From contig JABSOZ010000028.1 of assembly GCA_013215295.1 (NCBI GenBank), positions 1 through 44,772 of the forward strand: a DNA stretch of 44,772 nucleotides. Reading direction: 5' to 3'. Both the position numbers and the translations under genes were made by a program. This document shows positions 8,179-24,781 of the stretch, in pieces; the first letter of the stretch is position 1; every line of letters starts with the position of its first letter. Source of the DNA: Colwellia sp. (GTDB lineage Bacteria; Pseudomonadota; Gammaproteobacteria; Enterobacterales; Alteromonadaceae). The notes below the pieces were generated by a model. The model saw nothing but the letters and a program-made list of their open reading frames with translations, did not search any database and was not told where the DNA came from.

Positions 8179-8319
8179 TTATTTTCTTGTAGAACTTTTT
8201 ATTCTTGAAAGTGGCGCGTACTCAAAAATCACATATCGTAGATGTTCATTCATACTTTGAATAACAGACATGACACTAACGTTGACTTTCACCTTTTTAG
8301 TACTGTTCATATTAGCCAT
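8179..8319 (-). CDS. Possible small protein, 46 aa
   Basis: Short reverse-strand frame from ATG at 8319, beginning MANMNSTKKVKVNVSVMSVI. It is basic, with no membrane segment. No clear ribosome site precedes it, so it may be chance. It lies in the spacer between two divergent genes of the element. Confidence 0.25.
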   Translation of the reverse strand: MANMNSTKKVKVNVSVMSVIQSMNEHLRYVIFEYAPLSRIKSSTRK

Positions 8320-8620
8320 TATTTACAGCAAAACTGCCTATAAATGTTCGCATAAAAAATTATATTAAGTGGCTGTCCCATCTTTCATCTTTAGCTAATC
8401 TAACGGTTTATTGTATTTGGATTATTGGCTGTTTGTTGTTAATGGAAGTATTACTCATGATAATGATGAGAGGAAGAAGCAACGTCGAGTGATAGTTAAC
8501 GCGCTGTTACTTCAAATGATACTTGTCAGCGTCACATCAATATTGTTTACTATTAAACTTTTAGTGCAGGACATATAAAGTAAGTCGTATTAACTTCATT
8601 ATATTTACAAAATCACTATA

Positions 8621-8639
8621 TGCGACACTTAATGTCGTA
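8621..8639 (+). promoter_or_regulatory. Putative operator upstream of ftsZ2, shared with the WYL regulator gene
   Basis: TGCGACACTTAATGTCGTA, an inverted repeat with core CGACA-N5-TGTCG. It lies 48 bases before the preferred ATG (8688) of the ftsZ-like gene. A copy identical at 17 of 19 bases occurs in the same orientation 45 bases before the WYL regulator start (24640-24658). No other full copy was noticed by eye. Confidence 0.6.
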
Positions 8640-8687
8640 TAGGTGGTTTATGCTGAGCTTATAGATTGGTGTTATAGGTTTAACAAA

Positions 8688-9812
8688 ATGAAAGAATTAC
8701 TGAAATCCCGTCCAGGCTTACTCATTACAGTTGTCGGTGTAGGTGGATGCGGCTGTAATACTATTAACATGCTACATGAAAATAATTTAAGTAGTACCGT
8801 TAATTTAATTGCGGTGAATACAGACCTTGCCGTACTCAATCATTCAGCTGTTGATAGTAAAATTCTCATTGGGCAAGACCTGACTAACGGTTATGGAGCT
8901 GGGGCAGACCCTGCAGTGGGATTAAAAGCTGCACAAGAAAGTGAAGAAACCCTCAAAGCCGCGATTGAAGATAGTGACATTGTTATTATCACGGCAGGTT
9001 TTGGTGGTGGCACAGGGACTGGTGCGAGCCCTCTCATTGCAAAAATAGCGAGAGAGCTTGGTATTAACTGTTTGGCAGTGGTGACCTTACCTTTCGAGTC
9101 TGAAAGTAAAATGCGCATGGACTATGCACTCGAAGGAATAGAGCTTATTAAGGAGCCTGCCCAAGCATACATAACATTATCAAATGATTTGCTCCTTAAA
9201 GGTTTAGGAGAGAATGTGGGGCTGTTTTCGGCCTTTAAACAAAGTAATGAAGTACTCAATAATTTATTAACGGCTCTTGTGCAAATGTTGACGCAAACAG
9301 GGCACATGAATGTTGATATCAACGATTTTGCACGAATTTTATCGTTTGGTGGCGAGTCAGTATTAGGGGTAGGTAAAGCAGAAACCGAAGAAGATGCCTT
9401 TGAAGCGTTAGAGCAGGCACTTAATAACCCACTGGTGTCTGTAGAAAATATTGACACTGCACAGGGCATTATTATTCATATTTGCTGCAAAAAAGATGAT
9501 ATTAAGTTATCGACCTATGATGGTTTAGTGAATAACGTGAGAAAAAAATTAAAGCACGACTCAGCATTAATTGTGGCAGGTGTCTCTCTTGAGCCTGAGT
9601 TAGCAACAGAGTTATCTATATTAATTATTGCTTCAGGTATTTCAGCAAAGGAGCTACCTAAAAAAGTAAAAGAGACAGAGATACATGAATCATATGTTGG
9701 AGATGATTTAAGCTTTATTTCTGAGCCAGAATACTTAAAAGAGCTCACCAGTACATCTTCTTTTACCGATATACCATCAATTGTCAGAAAACTTCAGGGG
9801 CTTCGTCAGTAA
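8688..9812 (+). CDS. Divergent second FtsZ (tubulin-family GTPase)
   Basis: FtsZ homologue of 374 aa from ATG 8688. The frame extends to GTG 8643, which would place the operator-like repeat only 3 bases before the start, so 8688 is preferred. Motifs numbered from 8688: P-loop-like GVGGCGC at 17-23, tubulin signature GGGTGTG at 106-112, and the T7 catalytic segment NVDIND at 208-213 with both Asp residues kept. After a short linker of about 35-40 residues the tail ends FTDIPSIVRKLQGLRQ. This resembles the conserved FtsZ C-terminal peptide (DIPAFLRK in E. coli) that binds FtsA and ZipA. The protein is clearly divergent from housekeeping FtsZ, which lies in the dcw cluster, and it sits here among mobile-element genes. 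It probably polymerises or co-polymerises with host FtsZ; whether it blocks, modifies or replaces division is unknown. Confidence 0.88.
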   Translation: MKELLKSRPGLLITVVGVGGCGCNTINMLHENNLSSTVNLIAVNTDLAVLNHSAVDSKILIGQDLTNGYGAGADPAVGLKAAQESEETLKAAIEDSDIVIITAGFGGGTGTGASPLIAKIARELGINCLAVVTLPFESESKMRMDYALEGIELIKEPAQAYITLSNDLLLKGLGENVGLFSAFKQSNEVLNNLLTALVQMLTQTGHMNVDINDFARILSFGGESVLGVGKAETEEDAFEALEQALNNPLVSVENIDTAQGIIIHICCKKDDIKLSTYDGLVNNVRKKLKHDSALIVAGVSLEPELATELSILIIASGISAKELPKKVKETEIHESYVGDDLSFISEPEYLKELTSTSSFTDIPSIVRKLQGLRQ

Positions 9813-10368
9813 TGTTTATAATCAGTTTCTGGTAATAGTTAATGTCCGTTACCCTTGTATTTTTCAAGCTATATTGTTTCGGATGAATTAAAGCTTCTAA
9901 TAATAAGTATGATTAAACGCAATTAGAAATATTTTGGATAAACGGCTTATTTATTAATGAGTAGTTATTGCCATTAAACTTGGCAACATAAAGATGCTTA
10001 ACAGTTCGGTTTAATGCAACTTTAAAAGGTTAATTATTATTAACTACATTATAACCAATAGAGCATTACACTATTTCCATCCTGAATAAATGGGACTCAA
10101 TAAGTTAGTCATTTATCTAAGACGATCAGAAATATTGCAAATCCATATTTATCAGCACCTTCTTTTATTCTTTCTACACCTGCTGTCAAGTTGCGCATAT
10201 TAGAACCTGTATTAAAGTAGGTATTCATACACATTTTTATTAACAGATATCGTACTGTTTTGAGCTATACAATAAAGTTGTTCTCATCATTATCGATGGG
10301 AGTGGCTTAACAGTACTCACGTAATAATGGCTGAAACAACCACCTCAACACAAGTAAAAGGGTTTTAA
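9813..10368. other. Spacer after ftsZ2
   Basis: No solid gene. A 38-codon reverse-strand frame (10113-10229, starting MNTYFNTGSNMRNLTAG) is visible but has no support beyond being open. The sequence is AT-rich without obvious repeats. The end holds the ribosome site of the next gene. Confidence 0.4.
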
Positions 10369-11133
10369 ATGAAACTTGCTATATATTCAGATTTACACTG
10401 TGAATTTGAAACATGGGTACCACCCAAAGAAACTTCCCATGCCGATGTTGTTATTCTAGCGGGTGATATTCATATTGGTATCAGAGGCTTAATTTGGGCT
10501 CGTGAGCATTTTAAACAACCGATTATTTATGTCATCGGGAATCATGAATACTACCGAAGCAACTACCAAAAACTCAATAAGCAATTAAAAGAAAAAGCCA
10601 GTGAACTAGGTATTCACCTGCTTATGGATAGCTCTGTTGTCATTGACAATATATTGTTTATCGGTGCGACGTTATGGACTGATTTTAAGCTATATGACAA
10701 TCAATATAATAGCCAGATAGCAGCACAATATGGCATGACTGATTATAAATCTATTCGCTACAATCAAGGGGGAAAGTATCGAAAATTAACACCACCCGAC
10801 ACAATAAGAATGCATGTCACCAGTTTACAGTTCATTAAAACTGAGTTGAATGAAAAAAAGCATCACAAATCTGTTGTTATTACACACCATGCACCTTCGG
10901 AAGAGTCGATACCCGAAGAGTATAAAGCGAGTGAACTTTCTCCAGGGTACGCGTCAAACATTGAGCAAGACATAATAAATATGAAACACAGCCCCATACT
11001 ATGGGTGCATGGTCATACACATAATAATAATGATTACTTCATTGGGGGGACAAGGGTACTTTTTAACCAGCGAGGTTATTCACCCTCTGATTTAAATGAG
11101 GACTTCGATGAGCGCTTCACCGTTGAAATTTAA
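10369..11133 (+). CDS. Metallophosphoesterase (calcineurin-like)
   Basis: A 254-aa soluble phosphoesterase of the calcineurin-like superfamily. Metal-binding motifs appear in order: DLH (8-10), GD (32-33), GNHE (57-60), then THHAP and GHTH toward the C-terminus. These predict a two-metal phosphohydrolase; the substrate could be a nucleotide, phosphoprotein or phosphodiester. The ATG at 10369 has AAGGG 9 bases upstream. It lies downstream of ftsZ2 on the same strand but 556 bp away, so it is probably transcribed separately. It is likely cargo of the accessory region. Confidence 0.85.
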   Translation: MKLAIYSDLHCEFETWVPPKETSHADVVILAGDIHIGIRGLIWAREHFKQPIIYVIGNHEYYRSNYQKLNKQLKEKASELGIHLLMDSSVVIDNILFIGATLWTDFKLYDNQYNSQIAAQYGMTDYKSIRYNQGGKYRKLTPPDTIRMHVTSLQFIKTELNEKKHHKSVVITHHAPSEESIPEEYKASELSPGYASNIEQDIINMKHSPILWVHGHTHNNNDYFIGGTRVLFNQRGYSPSDLNEDFDERFTVEI

Positions 11134-11390
11134 TTATTGTAAGCAACATTTATTTAATGTCCCTCCTATATTGGATGAACGATATCGAAGCCAATGTGTA
11201 AATGTGGATCTTCACAAATTATCAGGATTCTTGAATCGTATTTTCTGGGCCGTAGTTAAATTGATAAAAACAATTAAAGTTCTTGCGTCAAAAGTAGTGA
11301 TCAAGTTACAAAACACTTCACTGTTCGCAAGAAAATAATGGCAACTAAGTGCCATTGCTGACATCAGCTACTGGTTGTTCTTTAGGTCAA

Positions 11391-11824
11391 CTTATAGCCC
11401 AGACTGTGTGAAAACGTTTTGATCACTTTTTCGAATAAGCACCGAATACTTATGATCAATCTCAAAACAAGATAATAAATCACTCTATATTTGCTATAAT
11501 ATTCATTAGGTTAATTGATTGTATGTTGGCTATATGTCACGTCATATTAAAGGTTCATCTCGCTCCCAAGCAACCCTCTTCCCAGAAATTCTTGAAGATT
11601 TTGTCGCTAAATAAAATCCCGTCAGAGTAATTGATGTATTTGCCGATGGGTTAGATTTAGAAAACCTTGTTTTTAAAGGCGTTCAATATAAAGCAACTGG
11701 ACGTCCTGGTTATCATCCCGCCATATTACTCAAGATTTATATCTATGGTTATTTAAACAGAATTCAGTCGTCACGCTGTCTAAGCGGAATAAGTTGGTAT
11801 CAACACAAAACCTTCCGCAGCTAG
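11391..11824 (+). pseudogene. IS1182-type transposase remnant
   Basis: An N-terminal transposase fragment starts at ATG 11534. The opening MSRHIKGSSRSQATLFPE is followed by a stop at 11612. The same frame then continues with NPVRVIDVFADGLDLENL, TGRPGYHPAILLKIYIYGYL and NRIQSSRCL until a stop at 11822. These are hallmarks of IS1182-like transposases. The catalytic part is absent. About 140 bases upstream the sequence CAGACTGTGTGAAAACG looks like a terminal repeat, so the left end is probably near 11391. Dead element. Confidence 0.75.
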
Positions 11825-12006
11825 CCATAAGCTGACATTAAACTTTTGTGAAGTCATGATCATATTTTGGGTAATATTACCGAGATTTTATGCTCGTTTG
11901 TGGGGCCGGTTTAAGCTCATTGCAGTCAGTGGCAGCTGAAGGGGCTATGCCACAATATAGTCTACACTTAATGCATCACTAGGGAATGTGAACAAAAGAG
12001 ACTGAA

Positions 12007-13472
12007 ATGCAGCAGGCACGCACAGCCAGCAACGGTGAACGCTTCAAATACCAACGCCATCAACCTGAGCAAACACTACTTTATCAACTTGTTGAACGTC
12101 ACTATGACGAATTTCAATCGTTGCTTGCGGTGCAGGGAACTCCGCTGCCGCCCTATGTGCAGACGGAATTTGAAGAATTTCTAAAATGTGGCCGCCTCGA
12201 ACATGGTTTCTTACGGGTGCAATGCGAGCGTTGTCATCATGAACGCCTAGTGGCTTTAGCTGCAAGAAACGCGGTTTTTGTCCAAGTTGTGGTGCCAGAC
12301 GAATGGCAGACAATGCAGTACTGCTTATTGATCACATCTTACCAATGGTTGATATGCGTCAATGGGTGATCAGTTTTCCATTTCAATTGCGTTTTCTGTT
12401 TGCCAGTTATCCAGCGGTGATGAGTGAAGTATTAAGTATTGTCACTCGCCTCATTTCTACTCATCTCATTCAAAAAGGCGGCGCTAAACACAGTACGGCA
12501 AGGATAGGGGCAGTTACCTTCATTCAGCGATTCGGCTCGGCGCTGAACTTGAATGTTCACTTCCATATGCTATTTCTAGGTGGTATTTACATGGATGGTT
12601 TCAAAAAAGAAAAGCAGGTATTTAAACAGGTAAAAGCACCAACGACAACAGAATTGAACGCGTTGGTGCATATACTCAGTCAACGTGTAGCCCGGTTTTT
12701 TACCAAACAGGGTTTACTGGTTGAAGACATCGACAATAGCTACCTAAATCTTGATGGGCTAGCGCCTGATCCAATGCAAGACTTGCATGGTCATAGCATC
12801 ACGTATCGGGTAGCACTTGGCGCTCAACGTGGTAAAAAAGTATTTACCCTGCAAACACTGCCCGCGCAAGTTGACGACGACAGTAGTAGCCAAGTGGGTA
12901 GCATAGCTGGCTTTAGTTTACATGCCGGGGTTGCAACCAGAGGAAATGAGCGAGAAAAGCTAGAGCGTGTATGCCGTTATATCGCAAGGCCTGCACTAAG
13001 TGAAAAACGGCTGACGATAACCGGCAATGGCAATGTACGCTACCAATTAAAAACACCGTATCGTGATGGCACGACCCATGTCATTTTTACGCCGCTGGAC
13101 TTTATGGCCAAGTTGGCTGCATTGGTGCCCAAACCACGGGTGAATTTAACGAGGTTCTTCGGTGTGTTTGCGCCAAACAGCCAATATAGGTTGGCAATAA
13201 TTCAAGAAAAAAAGGCAAAACCCAGAACAACGGAAGTCAAGGGGGATAAAACTGTAAAAGGAAAACGCAACTCAATGACCTGGGCACAAAGGTTAAAACG
13301 GGTATTCAACATAGACGTTGAAACCTGTGAATCTTGCCAGGGACAGGCAAAAGTCATCGCCTGTATTGAAGATCCTGAGGTCATCAAGAAAATATTAGAA
13401 CACCTCAAAAGCAATGAAGAAAAAGCCTCCTCAAGTAAGGGCACCGCCAGTTTCGATATTTGCATTAGTTAA
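12007..13472 (+). pseudogene. IS91-family transposase, one-base deletion
   Basis: Rolling-circle (HUH) transposase. The first frame (12007-12369) holds the start of the zinc-binding region, FLRVQCERCHHERLVA. The second frame (to 13472) resumes with CKKRGFCPSCGARRMAD. The break is at 12255-12257, where GGCTTTAGCTGC would read through as V-A-F-S-C-K-K if one more T were present. The rest keeps the HUH site NVHFHML, the catalytic tyrosine region RVCRYIARPALS and a C-terminal CESC. The restored length would be about 488 aa. The GC content is visibly higher than that of the neighbours, which fits recent arrival. The single T-run indel makes a sequencing error possible. Confidence 0.9.
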
Positions 13473-13797
13473 TTAGGGAAAGAAAATACAACAAAACAAG
13501 GATAATATTGCCGTTGCGCTAGCAGGGTAGCGTTTGTTCTTTTTTTGTAAATGAAAAGAATGAGGATGAAATGGGTCTGTAAACTAACAGACTTGCGTCA
13601 AATTATCAGAGCATTGGTTTGATGTCACGGCCAAAAGCAGCAATTTTTCGCTGACATTATGGATTGATTATATCAGATAAGGTGTTTATATTACTTATAC
13701 TCCGAGAACTTTATAATCTAGGGGTGTTATTGCTCATCTAATAGCTGTGTTAAAGTAACTATTCGAATTTACTCATTTTAATTAAAAGGTTATATTT
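13473..13797. other. Spacer between the IS91 element and the GGDEF gene
   Basis: No gene. It probably contains the terminal end of the IS91-like element, whose family lacks terminal inverted repeats, plus the promoter region of the next gene. No strong signal can be named. Confidence 0.3.
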
Positions 13798-14838
13798 TTG
13801 CGCCGACAAGTTAAATTAAATAATGACGAACTGCATCAGCCTGAGGTTGTGTCTTTATTTGCTCTTGTGGGGATGTCTATTACTGGCCTCATGGCTATCA
13901 TTGGGCTGTTCAACAACAAAATAGCTTTAGCTGCAGCGCTATTTTTTGCCAGTTTTATCTACTTTATCGGTTATATTTCTTATAAAAAATTTAACAATAT
14001 CGTATTAAGTTCAGCAATTGTACTCTACTCGCTCTATTTACTGATGTTCTATCTGGTCTACACTGGGGGTGTTGAGCATACTGGGCCGTTATGGATATTT
14101 ATCGTTGCACCTGTTTCCTTATTTGTTCATGGCTTAAAGCGTGGCTTAGCTGATATTGCCCTATTTATTACCCTCATCAGTTTCATTATGTTTATACCAA
14201 CAGATAGTATTGCCCATGCTAACTACAGCACAGAGTTTAAATTACGTTTAATCTACTCTTTTTTAACCGTTACCTTTCTATCAGCTTTGTATGAGTATTC
14301 GAGAGGTAAATCTTATCAGCGCATAGTAGAGTTAAGTAAGAAATATCAACAACTCGCTCATTTTGATCCCTTAACACAGTTGTCTAACCGCCGTGATGCC
14401 TTAGCGATACTGAAACAAGAACAAGCTCGAATACTGCGTAATGATGAACCATTGTTTATTGTTTTGTGTGACGTAGATCATTTCAAGAAAATAAATGATC
14501 AGTATGGCCACAATGGCGGCGATGCAGTTTTAATTGAACTTGCGCAAATCTTTGCCAAAAATATCAGAGAGCAAGATTGCGTAGCTCGTTGGGGCGGGGA
14601 AGAGTTTTTATTTATTTTACCACAAACCTCTGCGATTAATGCCAAGGTTATTGCCGAAAAAGTTCGAGAAAAGATAGACCAGCAGGTCATTATTTATCAA
14701 GGTAATAAAATTAAAGTGACGGTAAGTATGGGTATTGCACAACTTAATGCTAAGCAAAACATTGACGAAGTGATCAACCGTGCCGACAATTATTTGTATC
14801 AGGCCAAAAGCGCCGGAAGAAATCAAATATTTCCTTAA
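13798..14838 (+). CDS. Membrane-bound diguanylate cyclase
   Basis: A 346-aa inner-membrane protein predicted to make c-di-GMP. About six hydrophobic segments lie between residues 18 and 165, then a short helix leads into a GGDEF domain (from about 185). Signature: LCDVDHFKKINDQYGHNGGD, active site GGEEF at 266-270, and the inhibitory-site motif REQD at 257-260, exactly five residues before GGEEF. Catalysis with product feedback is therefore expected. The TTG start at 13798 is chosen because it is preceded by AAAAGG and no ATG lies in frame before the membrane domain. The input signal of the membrane domain is unknown. Confidence 0.9.
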   Translation: MRRQVKLNNDELHQPEVVSLFALVGMSITGLMAIIGLFNNKIALAAALFFASFIYFIGYISYKKFNNIVLSSAIVLYSLYLLMFYLVYTGGVEHTGPLWIFIVAPVSLFVHGLKRGLADIALFITLISFIMFIPTDSIAHANYSTEFKLRLIYSFLTVTFLSALYEYSRGKSYQRIVELSKKYQQLAHFDPLTQLSNRRDALAILKQEQARILRNDEPLFIVLCDVDHFKKINDQYGHNGGDAVLIELAQIFAKNIREQDCVARWGGEEFLFILPQTSAINAKVIAEKVREKIDQQVIIYQGNKIKVTVSMGIAQLNAKQNIDEVINRADNYLYQAKSAGRNQIFP

Positions 14839-15130
14839 GTTAACAGTAATGCATGTGGTTTTTTGCCACTTTATTTTAAGTTAAGCCATTAAATCCAGAG
14901 ACGCTTTATTCAGTGCTCTCGGCAATGTCGCCAATATAAAAATTAAGCTGCCTTCCTTGGCCTAAAAATCTAGTACGACATAAATTCCTCTTGTGCAAAT
15001 CTAGACAGTATATGACGCTATGCCAGTGGTTTTGTTACGTTTATATTCAAGGTGATAATAATATCTTTGATATTTCCTGAAGCAGAACAGCGTAATTAGG
15101 TTGTTTAAATTCTGTATCGCATTTTGCAAT

Positions 15131-15271
15131 TAATCTCATTTTGAGGCACGTAATTTAAATAACGATGATTATTTTCACACCGCCTTTCCAGTGCTGATTC
15201 AAGGGGGCAACTTCAATGCCTACCCTAATCAACCAAGCACTTATGGGGCAAGCATTTCATTTGAATTTTAA
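15131..15271 (+). pseudogene. C-terminal remnant of a TonB-dependent receptor
   Basis: A frame open from 15134 reads SHFEARNLNNDDYFHTAFPV..., then YPNQPSTYGASISFEF and stop. The VARNL-like motif and the terminal aromatic beta-strand ending in Phe are typical of the last strands of a TonB-dependent outer-membrane receptor. Upstream the frame is closed by a stop at 15131 and no further receptor sequence could be read, so only the tail survives. It marks a deletion or rearrangement in this spacer (14839-15584), which otherwise holds nothing recognisable. Confidence 0.6.
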
Positions 15272-15541
15272 TATCCTAACTTAATTTGTATGACGAACAA
15301 CAAGGCTGTGGTTAAAGTGAACTTAACTCTCGGTAACAATAGCCTTTTTCCTATTTTTTAATAGGTTGTCGAGGATTCAAAGCCTTTTAGCCACCCAATT
15401 TCCCCCTTTAAAACCATAGCCTCTGATGATCATTTGGTACAACGTTGCCTAGCATTTAATCTACTGGGATTAAGGCAAGATATTTTTCGCACGATATCAC
15501 TGAATATTTGCCCTATTCCCCTATTTAGTAGCAGTTAAAAT

Positions 15542-15575
15542 ATTTGAGATAAACCCAACTAGGGTTATCTCAAAT
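15542..15575 (-). terminator. Terminator after the methyltransferase-like gene
   Basis: Inverted repeat, arms 15542-15556 and 15562-15575 with a single-base bulge and a 5-base loop. On the minus strand it is followed by ATTTT. It starts about 10 bases after the stop of the reverse-strand gene. Confidence 0.65.
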
Positions 15576-15584
15576 TTATCAGTT

Positions 15585-16343
15585 CTACATAGGTTTTTTG
15601 AATAACAAGGTAAAGCGATCAGTATTGCCGGTTACCGTTTTTCGGCCAACTTCATAACGAAGTTCATCGTCGGCTTTGTAATGCATGTTTGAATAGTCAA
15701 CAAACTCAAACCCTGCGGCCTCTACTTCTTTAATCACTAAAACCGGGTCGACACGACGACCGTTTTCGTCATTTTCACTCTGCATATGACGACGAGTATG
15801 GTCAATAATACCGTAAATGCCACCGGGTTTGAGGGCCTTAAGTGCTTCTTCGTTTACTTTAGTACGTGTGTCTAAAGACAAGTTATGATAATTACGGAAG
15901 GTTAATACCGCATCAATATTCTTCAGGTCAAAATCAACCTTGCTTAAGTTGTAGCGTTTTTCTTCTTTGTTTCTATCCCATTGGGCATCACTGACTGTTT
16001 TTACTTTACTAAAAGCTGCTTTTTTCAATAAACCATCTTTCAAACGGTCATTAGCCATGCCTAAATAAAGTTGTCCTTTAACTTTAAGCACCGGGGCAAG
16101 AATTGAGGTATACCAACCACCACCAGGGATTAGTTCAAGCACTTTCATATCGGATTGAATACCCAAAAATTGCAATGTTTCAAGGGGGCGACGGTTACGA
16201 TCACGATCTTTATCTTTTTCTGAACGCATTTCAGAAGCCATAGCAGCTTTGACACTATCTGAGAAATCATCTGCCTGTACAAAGCCAGCACTTAAGCTAC
16301 AGCTAAGCATAAGAGGAACAAGTATTTTACGCATATTATTCAA
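15585..16343 (-). CDS. Exported class I SAM-methyltransferase-like protein
   Basis: A 252-aa protein with an apparent signal peptide (MRKILVPLMLSCSLSAGFVQA, cleavage around residue 25). A Rossmann methyltransferase fold follows: motif I VLELIPGGGWYT (about 70-81), an acidic strand end, DAVLTFRNYHNL in the region of motif IV, and LKPGGIYGIIDH. It resembles the predicted methyltransferase family COG4798. A secreted SAM-dependent enzyme is puzzling because SAM is cytoplasmic, so it may bind another ligand. It stands alone, with its own terminator downstream and a long spacer upstream. Confidence 0.8.
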   Translation of the reverse strand: MNNMRKILVPLMLSCSLSAGFVQADDFSDSVKAAMASEMRSEKDKDRDRNRRPLETLQFLGIQSDMKVLELIPGGGWYTSILAPVLKVKGQLYLGMANDRLKDGLLKKAAFSKVKTVSDAQWDRNKEEKRYNLSKVDFDLKNIDAVLTFRNYHNLSLDTRTKVNEEALKALKPGGIYGIIDHTRRHMQSENDENGRRVDPVLVIKEVEAAGFEFVDYSNMHYKADDELRYEVGRKTVTGNTDRFTLLFKKPM

Positions 16344-16654
16344 TCCTGTTGTTGTACCAAATAAAACATTATTTGATCATCTTCAAAAAGTCTAACTTAA
16401 CAATGTTGTCGTTGCTTTCAATCCCAATAGCCATTTATCTATTGCTCAATCAAGCGCCTTTAACTTGAAAGTTTATCCTCGTTGCTCGATTTAAGTAAAG
16501 TTGATCCGTTAATTTATCCCATTGGTATTATTCTAAAATTAGTCATTTTGATATTTTCGAGAATTATCCTAACCCATTGCTTTTAGCACGCTCCAGGGCA
16601 CATATCACCATAGATTTTTTCTCTAATTTAGACCGCTTCGTGCGCAAAGCGGAA

Positions 16655-16789
16655 GTAACATTTCAAAATTTTGAGTGTTTATCGAGGTCAACTAAGCACC
16701 AGTTAGTTGACTTAAGCATGTAGGCAGCTAATTTGATAATCATTGGCATAGCAGACGTTCCAAAAATTGGTTTTGAGACTAATATCATA
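16655..16789. repeat. Dispersed repeat B, copy 1
   Basis: Similar to 42440-42570. Shared blocks are CGAGGTCAACT, CACCAGTTAGTTGAC and GGTTTTGAGACT, with diverged spacing. It contains the hairpin GTCAACTAA / TTAGTTGAC. It is preceded by GTGCGCAAAGCGGAAGT, a module also found at 40555. Confidence 0.65.
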
Positions 16790-16837
16790 ATCAAAAAATC
16801 AAAAAATCAAAAAATCAAAAAATCAAAAAATCAAAAA
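16790..16837. repeat. 8-bp tandem repeat, six units
   Basis: Six perfect units of ATCAAAAA in the spacer between the methyltransferase-like gene and alkB, directly after dispersed repeat B. It is likely to vary in copy number by slippage. It is not near a start codon. Confidence 0.85.
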
Positions 16838-17404
16838 ACAGTTATAGAACGAGAACAATATCTATGCCCCATGAAAGTTCATTGCTCCGTTGACCTTCCA
16901 TAACTTGATGTTAACTTTGAGCCTATTGTGGTTATTAACTTAATTTTAGTTCAAGATAATTTTGTGCTCATTGGTGACTGTCAAGTTTCACATAACTATA
17001 GATTCGCTTTAGATCATATAGCAGATATAAATTTTATGCTTTACCGTCAATAAGCCTAAACTGTTAATTTTAGACATCTACCATAGGGCTAGTTAGGTAT
17101 TTAATTAGCCTCAAGGCTTAAAATTGACATAATAGTTCCCAAAAAGTTGCTTGTTAAGGCTGTCTTAAAATATATATTTGCTAATTTCATGCCATGAGTG
17201 TGTATAGACGCTTTGATCTAATGCTAGGTCGCATTCACATATTCTATATGTTTATCTTCTATGTATTGTATGTTTAACTAGAAATTCGTAAGGGTGCTTC
17301 AGTTGCAATATTACGATTGAATGTTAGATTAATGTTTGTTTTTTATAACCATTCGCACTTTCATCGCATTAAGACTCAAAATAATGAGCACTGTGGAGAG
17401 CATA

Positions 17405-18589
17405 ATGAACAAGGCAGGCACTTTTATTGCCAGTGATGGCACTTTTTATGTAGATAACAAGCGTTACTTTTGGTGGTTTTCTCTGTTGATACCCAGTGCA
17501 GCTGTAGCTGGTCTTCTGTTATATCCGTTTTTTAACCATGAATTTTTGCTCTGGTTGTTTTTTATTTTAGTCTATATCATATTCCCTATTGTTGATTACG
17601 TGATGGGAGAAGATAGCAGCAATCCGCCAGAGTCTGTTATAACCTTACTTGAGTCGGATCCTTTTTATCCCATAATCACCCGTCTGAACGTTCCGGTTGT
17701 CATTGCCTCTTTTATATTTTGTGCCTGGTTTGTCGCCAGTAATCAACTCAGTATTTATGGCTATTTAGCAGTTGCCCTGTTAGCAGGGATCGTAGGCGGG
17801 CACGGCTTAAACATTGGTCATGAATTGGGTCATAAGAGAAAGAAGCTTGATATATGGTTGGCTAAAATTGTACTTGCACCTGCGGCATACGGTCATTTTT
17901 TCATCGAGCATAACCGCGGCCACCATAAACACGTAGCCACGCCAGAAGATCCTGCCTCGGCCAAAATGGGCGAAAGCATTTATCGTTTTGCCTTAAGAGA
18001 ATTACCAGGTGCAATATTACGAGCATACAATATAGAAAAACTGCGTATGAAAAAAGCTGGTAAGTCTGCCTGGTCATTAGAAAATGAATTCTTGCAAGCC
18101 ATGTTGATGACTTTAGGGATTTTCGTTAGCCTGGTTGTGTGGTTAGGCTCAGGTGTTGTACCTTATTTAATCATATGTGCTTTCTGGTCAATGTGGCAGC
18201 TCACATCTGCTAACTATGTCGAACATTATGGTTTATTGCGACAAAAACTTCCAAGCGGACGTTACGAACGCCCACAACCACATCATAGCTGGAATAGTAA
18301 TCATATTTTCTCAAACTGGGCACTGTTCCACTTACAGCGTCACTCAGATCATCATGCCAATGCAACGCGTAGCTATCAGTCTCTGCGCCATTTTAGCGGA
18401 TTACCTACACTGCCAAGTGGTTATTTTGGTATGTATGTCGTCGCCTACGTTCCCTGGTTATGGTTTAAAGTGATGGACAAACGCTTGCTGCAAGTGACAG
18501 GTGGTGATTTTTCCAAAATAAATGTGCTGGCGCAAAAACGTGATAAATTAATGAGAAAATATCAGTCTACTATAAAGAGCCTTTCGTGA
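17405..18589 (+). CDS. alkB: AlkB-type alkane 1-monooxygenase
   Basis: Integral-membrane di-iron hydroxylase that oxidises terminal carbons of medium-chain alkanes with electrons from rubredoxin. It has 394 aa from ATG 17405, which has GGAGAG 6-7 bases upstream; in-frame TTG 17336 and ATG 17384 are less well placed. Six hydrophobic segments are visible. The His boxes are HELGH at 139-143, EHNRGHHKH at 168-176 and LQRHSDHH at 310-317, plus the family motif NYVEHYGL around 270-277. All iron ligands appear present. No rubredoxin or rubredoxin reductase gene is adjacent, so electrons must come from elsewhere. The gene stands alone. Confidence 0.93.
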   Translation: MNKAGTFIASDGTFYVDNKRYFWWFSLLIPSAAVAGLLLYPFFNHEFLLWLFFILVYIIFPIVDYVMGEDSSNPPESVITLLESDPFYPIITRLNVPVVIASFIFCAWFVASNQLSIYGYLAVALLAGIVGGHGLNIGHELGHKRKKLDIWLAKIVLAPAAYGHFFIEHNRGHHKHVATPEDPASAKMGESIYRFALRELPGAILRAYNIEKLRMKKAGKSAWSLENEFLQAMLMTLGIFVSLVVWLGSGVVPYLIICAFWSMWQLTSANYVEHYGLLRQKLPSGRYERPQPHHSWNSNHIFSNWALFHLQRHSDHHANATRSYQSLRHFSGLPTLPSGYFGMYVVAYVPWLWFKVMDKRLLQVTGGDFSKINVLAQKRDKLMRKYQSTIKSLS

Positions 18590-18629
18590 AATGAACACTT
18601 TATCGGAAGGGATGTTGTTGTGATTTAAA

Positions 18630-18850
18630 GTCTTAATGACCGCTTTGTTGGCTTAGTTCGCACTCAGACTAAACGGATCATTGGCAAATAAATCATCATC
18701 AAGATACATAAGTTCTCATCTATACCTAACGGCCGCTATCAGGAATCAGCTAACGTAATGTGGTTGTTCAGCCATGTCTGCTATAGATCAAAACATACTA
18801 AAAATTTTAGTGAAAATTATCAAATGCTAACTTCCGCAGTGTGGCAGCTA
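18630..18850. repeat. Dispersed repeat A, copy 1
   Basis: About 220 bp similar over its length to 44480-44697. Shared stretches include TTGGCTTAGTTC, TCATCATCAA, CCGCTATCAG, GTTGTTCAG/GATTGTTCAG, TAGATCAAAACATAC and CTAACTTCCGCA. The copies are degenerate and noncoding. It lies just after alkB. Confidence 0.7.
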
Positions 18851-18908
18851 CAGTCCTTAACAACTCACTTTATAAATTAGTGAATTGCCAAATGAAGTAG
18901 TTCTTTTA

Positions 18909-18987
18909 TTAAGGGCTTCTAGGTGCTCAGAGCGGAAGTATCAGAGTAGCTAAACCTAAGGTCAGCTTCAAGCTTCTTTGCCGACAT
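18909..18987. repeat. Dispersed repeat C, copy 1
   Basis: Similar to 40541-40622: TTAAGG.CTTCT.GGTGC, AGCGGAAGT, CTAAGGTC.GCTT and TTTGCCGAC-like ends. It lies about 60 bases after repeat A copy 1 and may be the right half of the same composite element. The whole spacer 18590-19169 carries no gene. Confidence 0.55.
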
Positions 18988-19169
18988 TCATATACTATTT
19001 TTAAAAGCTAAACTTGAGCCTGAGTCAAGAATAAGTAGAATTTAGAGGATAACTAAATTGTTCACACTTATCATTTAAATACCAATATTAACTAAATACA
19101 TACACATATATATTTTTTTTATTAATTATACTAAGGTTAAACGATGTTTGTTTATTAACTGATATTTAC

Positions 19170-22100
19170 TTGTATAAAAAAATAAAAGTACAATTAACTT
19201 TGTCGCTCATAATCCTATTTTATACTTCAATTGCTCTTGCATTAAACTCTGAGATCCGCTTTCAAAACCTTTCAATTGAAGATGGCTTACAGGAAAAATC
19301 TGTGAAGACTATGTTGCTAGATGACACAGGTTTTTTGTGGTTTGGTACTGAAGATGGCTTATTTAAATATGATGGTTATGGTTTAAAGACATTTAAGCAC
19401 GACTTAATTAAGGATAACTCTCTTTCCGGTAATTCTATTAATATTATTATTAAAGATAGTAAGAGTAATCTATGGATTGGCACTCGAGGCAAGGGGCTAA
19501 ACCACTTTAATACAAAAACAGAGCGGTTTACCCATTACCGCCATCAAGATGACAGCCCTAATAGTATCAGTGATGATCATATCTATAGTCTTTTAGAAGA
19601 TAGCCAAGGCCACCTTTGGATTGGGACACGTAATGGTCTGAATCATTTTAATACTGAAACAAATCAATTTACCCATTATCGCCATCAAGCCAATAATCCG
19701 AACAGCTTAAGTAATGATAGTGTCAGGAGCATTATTGAAGATAATCAAGGCAATCTTTGGTTTGGAACATTTAGTGGCCTCAATCACTTCAATACCAAAA
19801 CAAGACAATTTACTCAATATCGCCAACAAAGCAACGATGTTAATAGTTTAAGTAATGACTATATTTATAGCATTATTGAAGACAGTCAGAACAACCTTTG
19901 GCTTGGAACACGTGGTGGCATCAATCATTTTGATTCAAAAACAGCAAGGTTTTCCCATTACCCCCTTCAAGACAACGGTCCAAATAATATTAGTGATAAC
20001 TATGTATATAGTATTGTAGAAGACAGCCAAGACAATCTTTGGATTGGAACACTTAATGGTGGCCTCAAATATTTTAATACCAAAACAAGACATTTTACTT
20101 TTTATCGACATCAAGCCGGTGATGCTAATAGCTTAAGTCATGATTCTATATATAGCATTATTGAAGACAATCAAGGCGGTGTCTGGGTTGGAACACATAA
20201 AGGGCTTAATTATTTTAATATAAAAACAGACCAGTTTAACCATTTTCGTCATAAAGCCTCAGATGCTAATAGTTTAAGTAATGAGGGCGTCTATAGTATT
20301 ATGGAAGACAGTAACAGTGGTCTTTGGATTGGTACAAGTGGTGGTGGCCTAAATTATTATAATAGTAAAACAAATCAATTTACTCATTATCGTCATCAAA
20401 AAAATGATCCCAGTAGTATAAGTGGTGATTACATTTTTTCCATTGTCGAAGACCGTCAAGGGAACCTTTGGACTGGAACGGATGCTGGGCTTGATTATTT
20501 TAATACAGAAACAGAACAATTTACTCATTATCGCCATCAACCCGATGATATTAATAGCTTAAGTGGTGATTTTGTTTTTATCATTATAGAAGATAGTCAA
20601 GACAACCTTTGGATGGGAACAAATAAAGGACTTAATTATTTTAATACCAAAACAGCACAATTCACTCATTACCGTCATCAGGTCAATATTCCGAATAGTT
20701 TAAGTAATGACAATGTTTTCGGGTTAGTAGAAGACCGTCAAGGTAACCTTTGGATTGGGACGGATGAAGGGCTTAACTTCTTTAATAAAAACACTAAAAA
20801 ATTCACTCATTATCGCCATAATCCCAGCAAAAGCGACAGCTTAAGCCATGATAATGTCGAGAGTATTATAGAAGATAATCGAGGCAATCTTTGGATTGGA
20901 ACAGATGAAGGGTTAAACCTCTTTAATAAAAAAACTGAAAAATTTAAACGCTACACAACCCAGAATGGTTTACCTAGTAATATTATTTATGGAATTGAAG
21001 AAGATAATCAAGGGTTTATCTGGCTAACTACCAATCATGGACTATCTAGATTAGATACCAAAACAGGAAAGTTTCAGAATTATGATGTGGGTGATGGTCT
21101 TCAAAGTAACGAATTTAGTGGTAATGCCTCGTTTAAAAGTAAAAGTGGTGAATTGTTTTTTGGTGGGAACAATGGTTTTAATCGCTTTTATCCTGAAAAC
21201 ATAGTCGATGATATTCAACTACCTAAGGTAGTGATAACTGAAATGATGCTATTGAATAACACTGTGCCGATTATCCCTATCAATAACGTAAGGCACAACA
21301 ATATAGACACAACCGTCTCGCCATCCAAAAATAAAGCAAGGTTTAGCCTAAATCAGGTAATTAACGAAACTAAAGCTATAACTTTAACTTATCAAGAAAA
21401 TATTGTTGCATTTGAATTTTCTGCATTGCACTTTTCAAATCCTAAAAAGAATCAATATGCTTACCAACTGGTGGGTTGGAATGAAGACTGGGTAAGCACT
21501 GATTATAAAAATCGCAGAGCCACTTTTACAAACCTTCCTTACGGAGATTATATTTTTAGAGTAAAAGCGAGCAATGCAGATGGGTATTGGAATGAAGTAG
21601 GTACATCATTACAGATCAAGGTTTTGCCACCTCCGTGGAAAACGTGGTGGGCGTATACAATTTATGGTTTATTTTTATTGAGCTTAGTTTTTACGTTTAT
21701 ACATTCTCAAAGAAAGAAGGTGATTTTTGAACGAAAGGTTAATGCACAATTAGAAGACAAAGTAATAGAGCGCACCTCGCAGTTGCAATACAAGACTGAA
21801 GAATTACAAAAGTCAATTATGATGTTAGAAGAGATGAGTTTAACAGATCAATTAACCGGACTTAAAAACCGTCGTTTCTTGCTCAATAATATTGAAAACG
21901 ATATTTTGTTAGTACTGCGTAAATATAAGAGTAAGCATGAAAGCAATAGCAACAAGAAACCAGAAGCGGCAGACCTGATTATATTTCTTATCGACTTAGA
22001 CCATTTTAAAATGGTCAATGACATTCACGGCCATACTGCTGGTGATGCGGTATTAGTGCAAATTAAAGAGATTTTAGAACAAGTATTTCGTGAAACAGAT

Positions 22101-22523
22101 TATTTAGTTCGTTGGGGGGGAGAAGAGTTTTTGGTTATTGCCCGCTTTACCGAGCGTGGCAATGCCCCTGAATTAGCCGAGCGATTAAGACAAACTGTAG
22201 AAAATCATGATTTTGATATTGGGGGAAATAAAATACTTAAAAAAACTTGTTCTATTGGGTTTGCTTGTTATCCTTTTTCTACGCAAGATACAAAAGCATT
22301 AACATGGCAACAAGTTGTTGATGTTGCCGATCATTGTATGTACGCCGCAAAAAAATCAAATCGAAATGCTTGGGTGGGACTATACGCGAAAACTAATAAA
22401 CATAATGAGGATTTATTTACTGCGGTAATTGAAGAAACACAATCACTTATCCAATTAGATGAATTGAAAATGCTATCTTCTATAGCTGAAATTGATCAAG
22501 TTATTTGGATGGTGGGTGAGTGA
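19170..22523 (+). CDS. Two-propeller sensor with C-terminal GGDEF domain
   Basis: A 1117-aa transmembrane sensor predicted to make c-di-GMP. It starts with a signal peptide or anchor (1-25). About 14 two-component-regulator propeller repeats follow, each near 48 residues with the core LWIGT..GLN..NTKT..F.HYRHQ; fourteen suits two seven-bladed propellers. Next come a Y_Y_Y domain (about 735-815, YQLVGWNEDWVSTDYKNRRATF region), a membrane helix near 828-848, a coiled coil and a GGDEF domain. GGEEF is at 983-987 and the inhibitory RETD at 974-977. A 70-residue tail is unassigned. The start is TTG at 19170; no ATG or GTG lies in frame upstream and the ribosome site is weak, so the exact start is uncertain. 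The periplasmic ligand is unknown, perhaps a polysaccharide fragment by family analogy. Confidence 0.9.
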   Translation: MYKKIKVQLTLSLIILFYTSIALALNSEIRFQNLSIEDGLQEKSVKTMLLDDTGFLWFGTEDGLFKYDGYGLKTFKHDLIKDNSLSGNSINIIIKDSKSNLWIGTRGKGLNHFNTKTERFTHYRHQDDSPNSISDDHIYSLLEDSQGHLWIGTRNGLNHFNTETNQFTHYRHQANNPNSLSNDSVRSIIEDNQGNLWFGTFSGLNHFNTKTRQFTQYRQQSNDVNSLSNDYIYSIIEDSQNNLWLGTRGGINHFDSKTARFSHYPLQDNGPNNISDNYVYSIVEDSQDNLWIGTLNGGLKYFNTKTRHFTFYRHQAGDANSLSHDSIYSIIEDNQGGVWVGTHKGLNYFNIKTDQFNHFRHKASDANSLSNEGVYSIMEDSNSGLWIGTSGGGLNYYNSKTNQFTHYRHQKNDPSSISGDYIFSIVEDRQGNLWTGTDAGLDYFNTETEQFTHYRHQPDDINSLSGDFVFIIIEDSQDNLWMGTNKGLNYFNTKTAQFTHYRHQVNIPNSLSNDNVFGLVEDRQGNLWIGTDEGLNFFNKNTKKFTHYRHNPSKSDSLSHDNVESIIEDNRGNLWIGTDEGLNLFNKKTEKFKRYTTQNGLPSNIIYGIEEDNQGFIWLTTNHGLSRLDTKTGKFQNYDVGDGLQSNEFSGNASFKSKSGELFFGGNNGFNRFYPENIVDDIQLPKVVITEMMLLNNTVPIIPINNVRHNNIDTTVSPSKNKARFSLNQVINETKAITLTYQENIVAFEFSALHFSNPKKNQYAYQLVGWNEDWVSTDYKNRRATFTNLPYGDYIFRVKASNADGYWNEVGTSLQIKVLPPPWKTWWAYTIYGLFLLSLVFTFIHSQRKKVIFERKVNAQLEDKVIERTSQLQYKTEELQKSIMMLEEMSLTDQLTGLKNRRFLLNNIENDILLVLRKYKSKHESNSNKKPEAADLIIFLIDLDHFKMVNDIHGHTAGDAVLVQIKEILEQVFRETDYLVRWGGEEFLVIARFTERGNAPELAERLRQTVENHDFDIGGNKILKKTCSIGFACYPFSTQDTKALTWQQVVDVADHCMYAAKKSNRNAWVGLYAKTNKHNEDLFTAVIEETQSLIQLDELKMLSSIAEIDQVIWMVGE

Positions 22524-23164
22524 GTTCTTATTCAATAAATAAATAGATTTCTGGCCACTCTTCTAAATAATGTAATAACTTTAAATTTAACTTTGAAGTC
22601 ATACCATTACAAATACGTGAACGACCGCTTTGATGGTAGGGAAGCGGACTAATTACTATGATAAATCCCCGCTGAAATTTAGACCGCTTTGTGGCCAGCC
22701 TGTGTGAAAACTTTTTTGAACTGGCAAAGTTAGGCGAAATTACCTAGATAAAGCTCTGTAGCTTAAATTCTTAAGTAAGCTTGTTATCAAAGTGATGTGT
22801 ACTTTGCATAGCGTTGCAAAAACATTTCAGGCTAGGAGTTTTCAAACAGTCTGTGGCAATAGTGAATATTAGTGTAACTTAATACATGGAAATTTCTGTC
22901 TTTTGATAAAGGGCAGATAATAAGTAAAAGCGGGTTTAGTTCTTCTACTATTTCCTGTGTTTTAAAGAGAATAGAGTTGAATACTGACTGAAATGTTAAA
23001 CGAAATAGGAAACTCACTACACTTGAATTAGCTAAATAAATCCCCCTAAAAGCACTGAAAGTTTTATTACAATTGGGTATAGCCTTTAATTTACATAGAT
23101 AAGTACTATATCAAACCCTGACATATTATATTGTAACCTATGCATTACTATTGAGCTTAGAGAC
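22524..23164. other. Spacer with repeat debris
   Basis: No convincing gene. It holds GACCGCTTTG-type debris of the dispersed repeats at about 22620-22690, then a MITE-like element. A 61-codon reverse frame at 22832-23017 overlaps the element end and is not believed. Confidence 0.45.
22694..22857. mobile_element. MITE-like element with IS1182-type ends
   Basis: About 160 bp bounded by CAGCCTGTGTGAAAAC on the left and, in inverted orientation, GACTGTTTGAAAAC on the right. The hexamer TGTGGC occurs at both outer edges (22690-22695 and 22852-22857) and could be a target duplication. The ends resemble CAGACTGTGTGAAAAC at the left edge of the IS1182-like remnant at 11391. It has no coding capacity. 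Confidence 0.5.
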
Positions 23165-23329
23165 TTAACTATGGTTCTGTTCTAGGTACTTATCAGCGAG
23201 TTCAATTGTTTCAAAGTAATATTTTAACAATTTCATACGCTTGAGTTTTATAGGCTCAGGAATATCTTTGTCTTGTATGACATCTAACCATGACTGTACT
23301 AGAAAGGTAGGAAGAGGTGTTTCGTTCAT
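23165..23329 (-). CDS. Small hypothetical protein, 54 aa
   Basis: Reverse-strand frame from ATG 23329, MNETPLPTFLVQSWLDVIQD..., with a helical, charged C-terminal half (KLKRMKLLKYYFETIELADK). The sequence looks protein-like rather than random and is preceded by AGGATG about 10 bases upstream. No family is recognised. It lies between the propeller sensor and the WYL regulator. Confidence 0.5.
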   Translation of the reverse strand: MNETPLPTFLVQSWLDVIQDKDIPEPIKLKRMKLLKYYFETIELADKYLEQNHS

Positions 23330-23571
23330 TATTTGTGGTCATCCTTGATTAACTAATCTGTCATTAATATTAGCCTACAAAGTAAAGTTCTCAAGTAAAT
23401 ACTATTTATTAAATAGTTTTTAGTCCCGAAGGTGGCATGAGTGATCATACTGAAGGAGATTTCAAAGATTAGGGATAATCATAAAATTTAACTAATATGT
23501 TCAATTTTCTCATCTGGTGACGCGTTTCTTATTTGTGACGATCCACATAAATGTATTGGTAAAACCTTTAA

Positions 23572-24594
23572 TTAACCATATTTTTTTAATAAACTTAATG
23601 CCAATTCTTTGAAGTACTCACGTAAATAAAGGGGCTCTAAGACCTCAATGGTATTACCCATGCCTCGAAGAAACGCCTTTAACTTTGGTGTGTCCGAAAC
23701 GGTTGCATTGATCTTTACCATTTCAACTTGCTCTGTTTCAACAATGGTTTGATCGTGATTGAATTTACCATTACTTAAAATAAACGGGCTGTCTTTTCTT
23801 ATGAGTAAACTTAATGATATTTCATTACTCGTGCTATTTGATGCAAAGTAGGATTGCTTTATTTTCTCAAAGTCATAATCAGCAGGGGGAATACAACTCT
23901 TATCGGATACTTCGACATTCTTTATAAAAGCAATGGGAAATTTATACACTTTCTGGTGAAAGCTGCCAAAAGAACATACTAAAGTCATTACATTTTCGCG
24001 TTGCACTAACCCAAGGGGGTTAATCTTTTTGTAGCTTTTCCAAATAGGGTCTTGATTAGAAACGAGATAACGCTTTAGGTTGGCACTTATCTGCTTTTTA
24101 TGAAAAATAGCCTGCTTTATTTCACTTAATGCGTGTTTATCAGGCATAGGTAAAGACACAGGATTGTTACTACTGATAAGTGCTACAGACCGTTTCCAAT
24201 GTGAAATTAATGGAGACTTTTCACTTTCAATAATTGTTTGAGCTTTAATAAAGTATGCTGACAGATCGTCTAAAGTTGACTCTGGTAATAGTTCGTTTGC
24301 TACTTCTTGTAAAGTAGAGAAGGCTAGGGCGGAGTTAGCATCCATCAAAGATATATTAAGCTTTTTCCAATTTAAATTGATAGACCAACCATAAGGTTTT
24401 GAGCGCTTATCAACTTCTAATCCGAACAATCCTAGTTTTTCAAGAGATTCAAGATCTCGCTGTACCTTTCGGATGATCAAATATTCATGACCGTTAGATT
24501 CTAACCGTTCAAGCAATTGTCTTGTGGAAATCTTCTGAGGATAACGCGGAATATGGTCCAATAAATCAAGTTTTCTTTGAAACGAAGAGGACAT
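23572..24594 (-). CDS. WYL-domain transcriptional regulator
   Basis: A 340-aa regulator with an N-terminal winged helix (about 8-65, STRQLLERLESNGHEYLIIRKVQRDLESLEKLG) and a WYL domain in the second half (KKINPLGLVQRENVMTLVCSF, about 185-215). WYL proteins sense nucleic-acid or nucleotide-like ligands and control defence, mobile-element and DNA-damage genes in many bacteria. A 19-bp inverted repeat 45 bases upstream of its ATG recurs before the ftsZ-like gene, suggesting autoregulation and control of ftsZ2. It is divergent from the ParS/Xre-like gene across 187 bp. No Brx, Abi or toxin gene is next to it. Confidence 0.85.
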   Translation of the reverse strand: MSSSFQRKLDLLDHIPRYPQKISTRQLLERLESNGHEYLIIRKVQRDLESLEKLGLFGLEVDKRSKPYGWSINLNWKKLNISLMDANSALAFSTLQEVANELLPESTLDDLSAYFIKAQTIIESEKSPLISHWKRSVALISSNNPVSLPMPDKHALSEIKQAIFHKKQISANLKRYLVSNQDPIWKSYKKINPLGLVQRENVMTLVCSFGSFHQKVYKFPIAFIKNVEVSDKSCIPPADYDFEKIKQSYFASNSTSNEISLSLLIRKDSPFILSNGKFNHDQTIVETEQVEMVKINATVSDTPKLKAFLRGMGNTIEVLEPLYLREYFKELALSLLKKYG

Positions 24595-24639
24595 GGATAA
24601 CCAGAAAAAGTGGATAGTGAATAAACTTTAGCATATTGA

Positions 24640-24658
24640 TACGACAAAAAGTGTCGCA
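24640..24658 (-). promoter_or_regulatory. Putative autoregulatory operator of the WYL regulator
   Basis: On the minus strand it reads TGCGACACTTTTTGTCGTA. It differs from the ftsZ2 site (8621-8639) at two bases, both in the central spacer, and has the same CGACA-N5-TGTCG core. It lies 45 bases before the WYL start codon, against 48 bases before ftsZ2. Confidence 0.65.
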
Positions 24659-24781
24659 CAGTTGAGTTTTATCATGATGAGTAAATTATCACCTTCACTT
24701 GAATAGTCGCGCATAATTAATTATTCGTTAAGCTATTGCCTGAAGTACATAATAATTGTTGAATTTAGAGGCACAGAGTAA

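Follow-up and report, generated by a model that had tools for sequence, protein, structure and literature searches.

The window analysed here is a stretch of 44,772 nt from the forward strand of contig JABSOZ010000028.1 of Colwellia sp. (GCA_013215295.1), in which a gene encoding a second FtsZ protein (ftsZ2) and a distant gene encoding a regulator of the WYL/WCX type are each preceded by the same predicted operator (Table 1). Comparison of the two genes and their upstream regions with those of relatives gives good support to a module in which the conserved target of a DriD-type WYL activator is a second FtsZ; the signal perceived and the effect on cell division are what we infer beyond that comparison. 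From sequence evidence we estimate the probability that FtsZ2 is the main conserved target of such an activator at about 0.75, and that of an activator module as such at about 0.8. In the proposed mechanism a dimer of the WYL protein would bind a ligand, probably single-stranded DNA (ssDNA) from damage or phage replication, and the ligand-bound dimer would cover the -35 region of both promoters and recruit RNA polymerase, turning on ftsZ2 and, outside Pseudoalteromonas, also its own gene in a positive feedback.

Within the window, TGCGACACTTAATGTCGTA and TGCGACACTTTTTGTCGTA are the only matches to the operator at ≤3 mismatches (chance expectation 0.10), and one of 100 shuffled windows reached two matches. 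This confirms the initial annotation, according to which the two genes have an operator in common and both differences between its copies fall in the centre of the inverted repeat: they are located in the 5-base spacer. The distances of 48 and 45 bases to the start codons (ATG at 8688 and 24594), which it had counted from the start of the sites, are correct for the downstream ends of the operators. A genome-wide scan for the motif, also proposed there, found 12 copies of the core CGACA-N5-TGTCG in the 5.77-Mb genome, compared to 2 for the reversed control; 9 of them lie within open reading frames (ORFs), 1 in a terminator-like intergenic hairpin, and none but the two sites of the window precedes a gene. 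A standard -35/-10 promoter scan called no promoter upstream of ftsZ2 and labelled the operator palindrome as terminator-like, which we take as a by-product of the palindrome, and an Rfam search of window positions 8000–26000 retrieved no family.

Table 1. Coordinates of the two genes and their predicted control elements in the window.
Feature	Position	Strand	Basis
Predicted DriD-type operator before ftsZ2, TGCGACA-N5-TGTCGTA, TGCGACACTTAATGTCGTA	8621..8639	+	Pattern search, consensus comparison
Inferred -10 of ftsZ2, TATGCT, starting 9 bp past the operator	8649..8654	+	Fixed register across relatives
ftsZ2, second FtsZ, 374 aa, tubulin/FtsZ GTPase and FtsZ_C domains	8688..9812	+	Pfam, alignment, tree, dN/dS
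13,759-bp stretch between both genes, without counterpart at the C. hornerae locus; putative insertion or rearrangement	9813..23571	.	Alignment
WYL/WCX regulator gene, 340 aa, DriD/PafBC-like	23572..24594	-	Pfam sub-threshold WCX, PADLOC WYL models, predicted fold
Inferred -10 of the WYL gene, TAAAGT, starting 9 bp past the operator	24625..24630	-	Fixed register across relatives
Predicted DriD-type operator before the WYL gene, TGCGACA-N5-TGTCGTA, TGCGACACTTTTTGTCGTA	24640..24658	-	Pattern search, consensus comparison

The family was sampled with 295 genomes, and a match was scored as FtsZ2 only if it exceeded the band of housekeeping FtsZ (9 more genomes with two FtsZ matches at the housekeeping level remained uncounted). 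By this measure FtsZ2 is present in 23 genomes, a close orthologue of the WYL protein in 15, and both in 13 (Fisher P-value 7×10-15, uncorrected for kinship). The two genes are linked in all 13, tail to tail in 11 and, in 2, on one strand with WYL preceding ftsZ2; the gap between them does not exceed about 0.8 kb in the other 10 tail-to-tail genomes, compared to 13,759 bp in the window. A 19-kb stretch of Colwellia hornerae aligns to window positions 8609–9803 and 23572–24679 with nothing in between; the homology begins 12 bases before the operator of ftsZ2 and 21 before that of the WYL gene, and extends to within 9 bp of the end of ftsZ2 and up to the stop codon of the WYL gene. When two short conserved peptides were used to scan 84,980 species genomes (some of which overlap with the family sample), 27 WYL relatives were retrieved, 17 of which adjoin an ftsZ2 gene, tail to tail in C. 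hornerae, a Thalassotalea, five Alteromonas and one ALOHA assembly, and on one strand in nine Pseudoalteromonas; no FtsZ was found within the flanking DNA examined for the other 10. In a plasmid collection, all 5 Pseudoalteromonas records with FtsZ2 have the WYL gene adjoining. Since the genes are adjacent in relatives, the pair in the window represents one split module and not two independent loci, and the two-locus regulon suggested in the initial annotation is ruled out as the ancestral state. The comparison of loci thus demonstrates a conserved two-gene module, apparently split in the window.

Several minor observations concern the same genes. The intervening stretch contains two overlapping ORFs (12007–13472) which, by eye, resemble a disrupted IS91-type transposase. 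Decaying copies were found in relatives: an ftsZ2 with an internal stop beside a weak operator (G007, locus L044), a second ftsZ2 with a stop (G280), and WYL genes with internal stops (G015, L020, and G130, L024). Eight genomes of a single genus (G206 and relatives; L047–L054 and L105) possess FtsZ2 but lack both the WYL gene and the operator, and the neighbours of their ftsZ2 include, by eye, HicB-like, EAL-domain and redoxin genes. A phage origin was rejected: scans of viral contigs gave 1 distant FtsZ-like match (26%) and no WYL relative, and a phage collection yielded FtsZ at 33–45% identity among the matches listed (20 of 23).

The operator is conserved together with the module. The pattern TGCGWCA-N5-TGWCGCA occurs with at most 3 mismatches in 14 positions before both genes in all 11 tail-to-tail pairs of the family sample, and for none of these 22 operators did more than 1% of 300 shuffled versions of the respective upstream region reach an equal match; the bare core of the window precedes, without mismatch, the WYL genes of 8 of 12 relatives. 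Before ftsZ2 the operator is present in 13/13 linked genomes, in both gene orders, and in 0/10 unlinked ftsZ2 genes; the latter, as well as the WYL gene of G248, show no operator (best sites with 4–6 mismatches). Where both genes are on one strand (two genomes), the operator is found before ftsZ2 and not before the WYL gene (best sites with 5 and 4 mismatches). An exact search for the 19-bp pattern in 15 genomes found 12 sites in 10 of them, all at the module (the window's own operators match this pattern only with one mismatch), and a composite of operator and -10 element at ≤1 mismatch found 17 distinct sites in 12 genomes, again all at the module. Hence a wider regulon in the module-bearing genomes was rejected, as neither search gave a member outside the module. 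With relaxed thresholds, i.e. the bare 19-bp pattern at 1 mismatch or the composite at 2, the scattered extra sites are about equal to or near the control level in most genomes. Exceptions are G105, with 14 sites against 5 for the bare pattern (one of them before another WYL gene, L109) and 8 forward and 4 reverse sites against 0 and 2 for the composite, and G015, with 5 and 4 composite sites against 1 and 1.

The position of the operator relative to the putative -10 element is fixed to the base. In a set of 38 promoters (24 of ftsZ2 and 14 of WYL genes; the chromid loci L100–L102, the WYL genes of Pseudoalteromonas and the unlinked ftsZ2 genes, the latter two groups without an operator, were omitted) the 19-bp operator is followed in every case, after exactly 9 bp, by an xAnnnT hexamer. 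It reads TAnnnT in 31 promoters and CAnnnT in the other 7, which belong to ftsZ2 of Alteromonas and of its ALOHA relative, while TAnnnT at the other offsets from 0 to 18 occurs in 0–8 of the 38. All three chromid loci exhibit TATGCT at +9. Similarity to TTGACA amounts to 0–2 of 6 positions at 17-bp spacing and to at most 3 at 15–19 bp (17 promoters checked), with 1 of 6 at 17 bp for ftsZ2 of the window. If the -10 element starts at -12, the operator spans -40 to -22 and is centred where the -35 element is missing; with no good -35, these promoters should be weak without an activator. Control by LexA was rejected, as the box CTGT-N8-ACAG (≤1 mismatch, 150 bp upstream) is absent from all 34 genes scanned, including 8 ftsZ2 genes without the WYL gene; in this family the box may have another form.

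Such an arrangement resembles the DriD-DidA DNA-damage checkpoint of Caulobacter crescentus, in which DriD is a WYL activator with a winged helix-turn-helix (wHTH), a three-helix bundle, and WYL and WCX domains (PMC12340889, PMC4211646). The operators of the window fit the DriD consensus ATACGAC-X7-GTCGTAT (PMC12340889, a preprint) at 13/14 and 12/14 positions, the DriD probe given in the preprint shows 0 mismatches to the family operator pattern, and the best sites in the published didA, CCNA_03891 and bapE promoters show 2, 1 and 4. DriD sites are described as overlapping a poor -35 (1–2 matches of 6) at a single fixed distance to the -10, with G at -14 among the few conserved bases (PMC12340889); 9 bp past the site, the three promoters have CAAGGT, CAATCT and CAAGCC, each with G at -14 (the bapE hexamer does not end in T). 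Both systems have in common the operator consensus, a site centred on a poor -35, the fixed distance to the -10 and an output that acts, or here would act, on cell division. They differ in that the conserved target here is a second FtsZ and there an FtsN-binding inhibitor, that close sites here occur, in the genomes searched, at one module only, and that the WYL gene here has its own site in an activating position, while the gene of DriD is reportedly not activated by its product. A second relative is PafBC, also a WYL activator, which works without the usual -35 contact (PMC5656591, PMC11804915) and uses in mycobacteria the P1 motif tTGTCRgtg-N8-TannnT (PMC5656591), which agrees in its half-site and in its distance to the -10. 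In contrast to the present system, with a full palindrome and one or two genes, PafBC is described as a heterodimer of which only PafB contacts promoter DNA, and it serves many repair genes.

The analysis of the WYL protein points in the same direction. Pfam identified the WCX domain alone and just below the cut-off (22.5 bits compared to 23.9), and PADLOC matched its WYL models (best E-value 3×10-14). The predicted structure comprises wHTH, helical bundle, WYL and WCX in the order of DriD, and the fold search returned DriD as the best match (ranks 1–6, E-values 4.5×10-14 to 5.8×10-13), followed by PafBC (rank 7), CapW (from rank 16) and BrxR (from rank 19). Between the window and C. hornerae, dN/dS is 0.07 for both genes of the module (dS values of 1.2 and 0.9, near saturation). 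CapW and BrxR raise the alternative of a WYL repressor that would cover the -35 of ftsZ2 and of its own gene and be released upon ligand binding. These regulators are known as repressors encoded beside phage-defence genes, with palindromes before their own genes or operons (PMC9122588, PMC9122601), they were retrieved by fold in our search, and several Pseudoalteromonas pairs are likewise located among defence genes. However, their fold match is weaker than that of DriD and PafBC, which top the ranking, and their effectors are defence systems and not FtsZ. Moreover, the CapW sites are described as overlapping the -10 and the BrxR site as following it, whereas here the operator ends 9 bp before the inferred -10 and takes the place of the -35 base-exactly in two unrelated promoters per genome, which should be weak unless activated. 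Repression therefore appears unlikely: the DriD-like sequence, the -10 register and the fold rank, together with the site positions of CapW and BrxR, favour activation, and the comparison with DriD drawn in the initial annotation holds both for the operator sequence and for its position in the promoter.

The same box was found also at WYL genes that have no FtsZ in their vicinity. In a class-wide set of 369 genomes (WYL relatives accepted at E-values up to 10-25), 22 genomes other than that of the window possess a WYL relative, at 23 loci, none of which has FtsZ within about 1.5 kb; 9 boxes with ≤2 mismatches precede the WYL gene at 8 of these loci, with TAnnnT at +9 in 0/9 and xAnnnT in 3/9. 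In another set of 23 distant WYL loci, obtained from the family and genome scans (two loci represent one genome), a box with ≤3 mismatches precedes the WYL gene in 16, and TAnnnT follows at +9 in 4 of them (L012, L032, L040 and L098). The box is thus common to a wider WYL group, while the register is strict in the FtsZ2 module and is found also before other genes in some relatives. This leaves the alternative of a general box of the WYL group and of a chance neighbourhood with FtsZ2, retained by common descent. Boxes of the TGCGACA-N5-TGTCGCA type before FtsZ-free WYL genes (e.g. L031, L098, L115, L119, L127), -10-like elements in the same register at L012, L032, L040, L098, L109 and L130, and the 10 FtsZ2 genomes without the WYL gene agree with it. 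Nevertheless, we regard it as very improbable, given that the box accompanies every linked ftsZ2 in both gene orders and no unlinked one, and that the class-wide register is loose compared to that of the module.

Individual loci of this wider group deserve mention. L130, from the class-wide set, has an exact box at oriented position 2592, behind a distant WYL gene, with TATAAT at +9 and before an ATG, which makes the gene a candidate DriD-type target. On contig C4 of G105 (L109) a different WYL gene and the gene that follows it each exhibit a TGCGACA-type box with AATAAT at +9; perhaps this is the same switch with another output. Contig C52 of G000 (L012, L110) carries the other WYL gene of that genome (28% identity) with a weak box (3 mismatches) and TATAGT 9 bp further on, upstream of large genes that appear by eye helicase-nuclease-like, and a second DriD-type promoter is possible there.

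A number of points weigh against an activator module dedicated to FtsZ2. The predicted structure of the WYL protein is weak overall (pLDDT 77, pTM 0.35), and the TM-scores, normalized by the query, reach only 0.20–0.28 for full-length WYL entries (0.25–0.26 for DriD), which means that the fold match rests on domains and not on the overall shape. The identity to DriD, in itself a difference from that protein, is about 16%, and the sequence profile extends only to the WCX part of DriD (E-values 0.005–0.018). In the alignment of 12 WYL proteins (L017, L020 and L024, with an odd C-terminus or internal stops, and more distant WYL proteins were omitted) the W-Y-L triad appears by eye to be lost, so the ligand may not be ssDNA. 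Given the boxes at FtsZ-free WYL genes, neither the box nor the 9-bp register is exclusive to the module, and exclusivity of the register was rejected. The cut-off for WYL orthologues that admits G167 and G098 (29–30% identity) was chosen after their linkage was known; without these two (WYL identity ≥43%), FtsZ2 is found in 11 of 13 WYL genomes, the remaining ones being G130, with a remnant interrupted by stops, and G248, where the WYL gene is near a contig end. Conversely, 10 of the 23 FtsZ2 genomes have neither a close WYL gene nor the operator. The search pattern was derived from the loci of this very family, the 38 promoters are related to each other, the -10 elements of both promoters are inferred, and 6 chance matches arose in the 15 genomes when the 19-bp pattern was reversed as a control. 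In Pseudoalteromonas (9 loci from the scan and 3 chromid loci) the operator is present before ftsZ2 and missing before the WYL gene. Autoregulation is consequently not universal, and the earlier proposal that the WYL protein acts on itself and on ftsZ2 agrees with the tail-to-tail pairs but not with these loci. Finally, PADLOC applied to 10 proteins of the window called no defence system and returned only WYL models and weak or generic matches.

The FtsZ2 protein exhibits hallmarks of FtsZ: the GTPase and FtsZ_C domains, a GGGTGTG loop, the catalytic Asp residues of T7 and a C-terminal DIPAF-like peptide. The GGGTG(T/S)G loop, the T7-loop motif N-V-D-x-x-D and the C-terminal (I/V)P-x-x-x-R peptide are kept in all 16 aligned proteins (L044, with an internal stop, and L047, L048, L051, L052, L054 and L059 were omitted from the alignment). 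Hence, FtsZ2 resembles known FtsZ proteins and paralogues in its domains, T7 loop and C-terminal peptide, but it differs in forming a separate group, in a residue of the nucleotide loop and in having its own regulator. The tree separates 21 rows of FtsZ2 from 8 rows of housekeeping FtsZ of the family with 100/100 support (the branches are long, and only this split was used), and the nucleotide loop has C in 20/20 FtsZ2 in place of the glycine found in 8/8 housekeeping proteins; N is fixed in the T7 loop of 20/20 FtsZ2. These features fit a working FtsZ under selection better than a simple inhibitor.

With the residues for GTP hydrolysis and the FtsA/ZipA-type C-terminal peptide in place, FtsZ2 would most likely polymerize at the division site as an alternative FtsZ, where it might keep, restart or reshape division when damage-induced or phage-made inhibitors block the housekeeping FtsZ; we consider such a bypass role plausible, at somewhat less than even odds. 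Or perhaps FtsZ2 could block division, by co-polymerization or competition with the housekeeping FtsZ, with an outcome like that of DidA or SulA, in a checkpoint or in abortive infection? DidA, the best-known target of DriD, pauses division (PMC4211646, PMC12340889), defence genes surround several Pseudoalteromonas loci, and SulA-family matches are rarer in genomes with FtsZ2 (2/23 compared to 90/272, Fisher P-value 0.017, with kinship and weak SulA matches as confounders). On the other hand, a pure poison needs no GTPase activity, whereas here both loops and the C-terminal peptide are kept under strong selection, which renders this role rather doubtful. A replacement of SulA by FtsZ2 was set aside, its support being weak and confounded in the same way.

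Such activator control would probably allow the cell to switch on a second division protein when stressed or attacked. As a tentative extension, well short of even odds, the module may be imagined as an inducible spare division ring, in which a DriD-type WYL protein sensing ssDNA or phage activates a second FtsZ that replaces or overrides the inhibited housekeeping FtsZ; in Pseudoalteromonas, where it may reside in defence hotspots, it could represent a new anti-phage defence based on an inhibitor-resistant copy of the target, and the switch itself could be a portable cassette with exchangeable outputs. A link between FtsZ, a phage inhibitor and immunity has been described for CapRel-Ebc (PMC13423816), in which, by contrast, the essential FtsZ of the host is part of the trigger; the abstract of that report names no FtsZ paralogue and no WYL regulator.

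The predicted module connects a stress activator of the WYL type with an additional copy of the principal division protein by means of a base-exact promoter code common to Caulobacter DriD, which the PafBC motif matches in half-site and spacing. If this is true, DriD-type control is a portable switch and not a peculiarity of Caulobacter, and some bacteria can swap or add an FtsZ under attack. It will be interesting to determine what purpose second copies of FtsZ serve and whether cells defend division itself against phage and against inhibitors induced by damage. The code of operator and -10 element may also help to predict targets of other WYL activators from sequence. In the literature covered, which excludes most subscription journals, no title or opening of an abstract reports the WYL-FtsZ2 pair.

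The analysis of genomic neighbourhood, carried out with PADLOC for 9 neighbours of the pairs in five Pseudoalteromonas loci and one Thalassotalea locus, revealed matches beside 4 of the 5 Pseudoalteromonas pairs, namely Zorya II A, B and E, IetA-like ATPases (which may be generic), PDC-S11 and a helicase, and none beside the fifth pair or for the one Thalassotalea neighbour tested. All three chromid pairs adjoin genes annotated as viperin, DUF262, McrC, ring nuclease or restriction genes, and four Alteromonas loci have, by eye, a common context without defence genes. Defence genes are thus found beside some Pseudoalteromonas copies, and no defence system was called in the window. In the window, a phage-type integrase gene of the minus strand comes after a tRNA-Leu (4877–6273), which makes the region after secG look like a genomic island; a repeat of the tRNA-Leu end that could mark its border was searched for within the window and not found. 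An ORF of 117 aa (24782–25135), oriented divergently to the WYL gene, gave no match to Pfam or PADLOC, and further downstream an ORF of 2620 aa (30040–37902) adjoins a β-helix protein (27584–29821) and perhaps encodes a giant surface protein.

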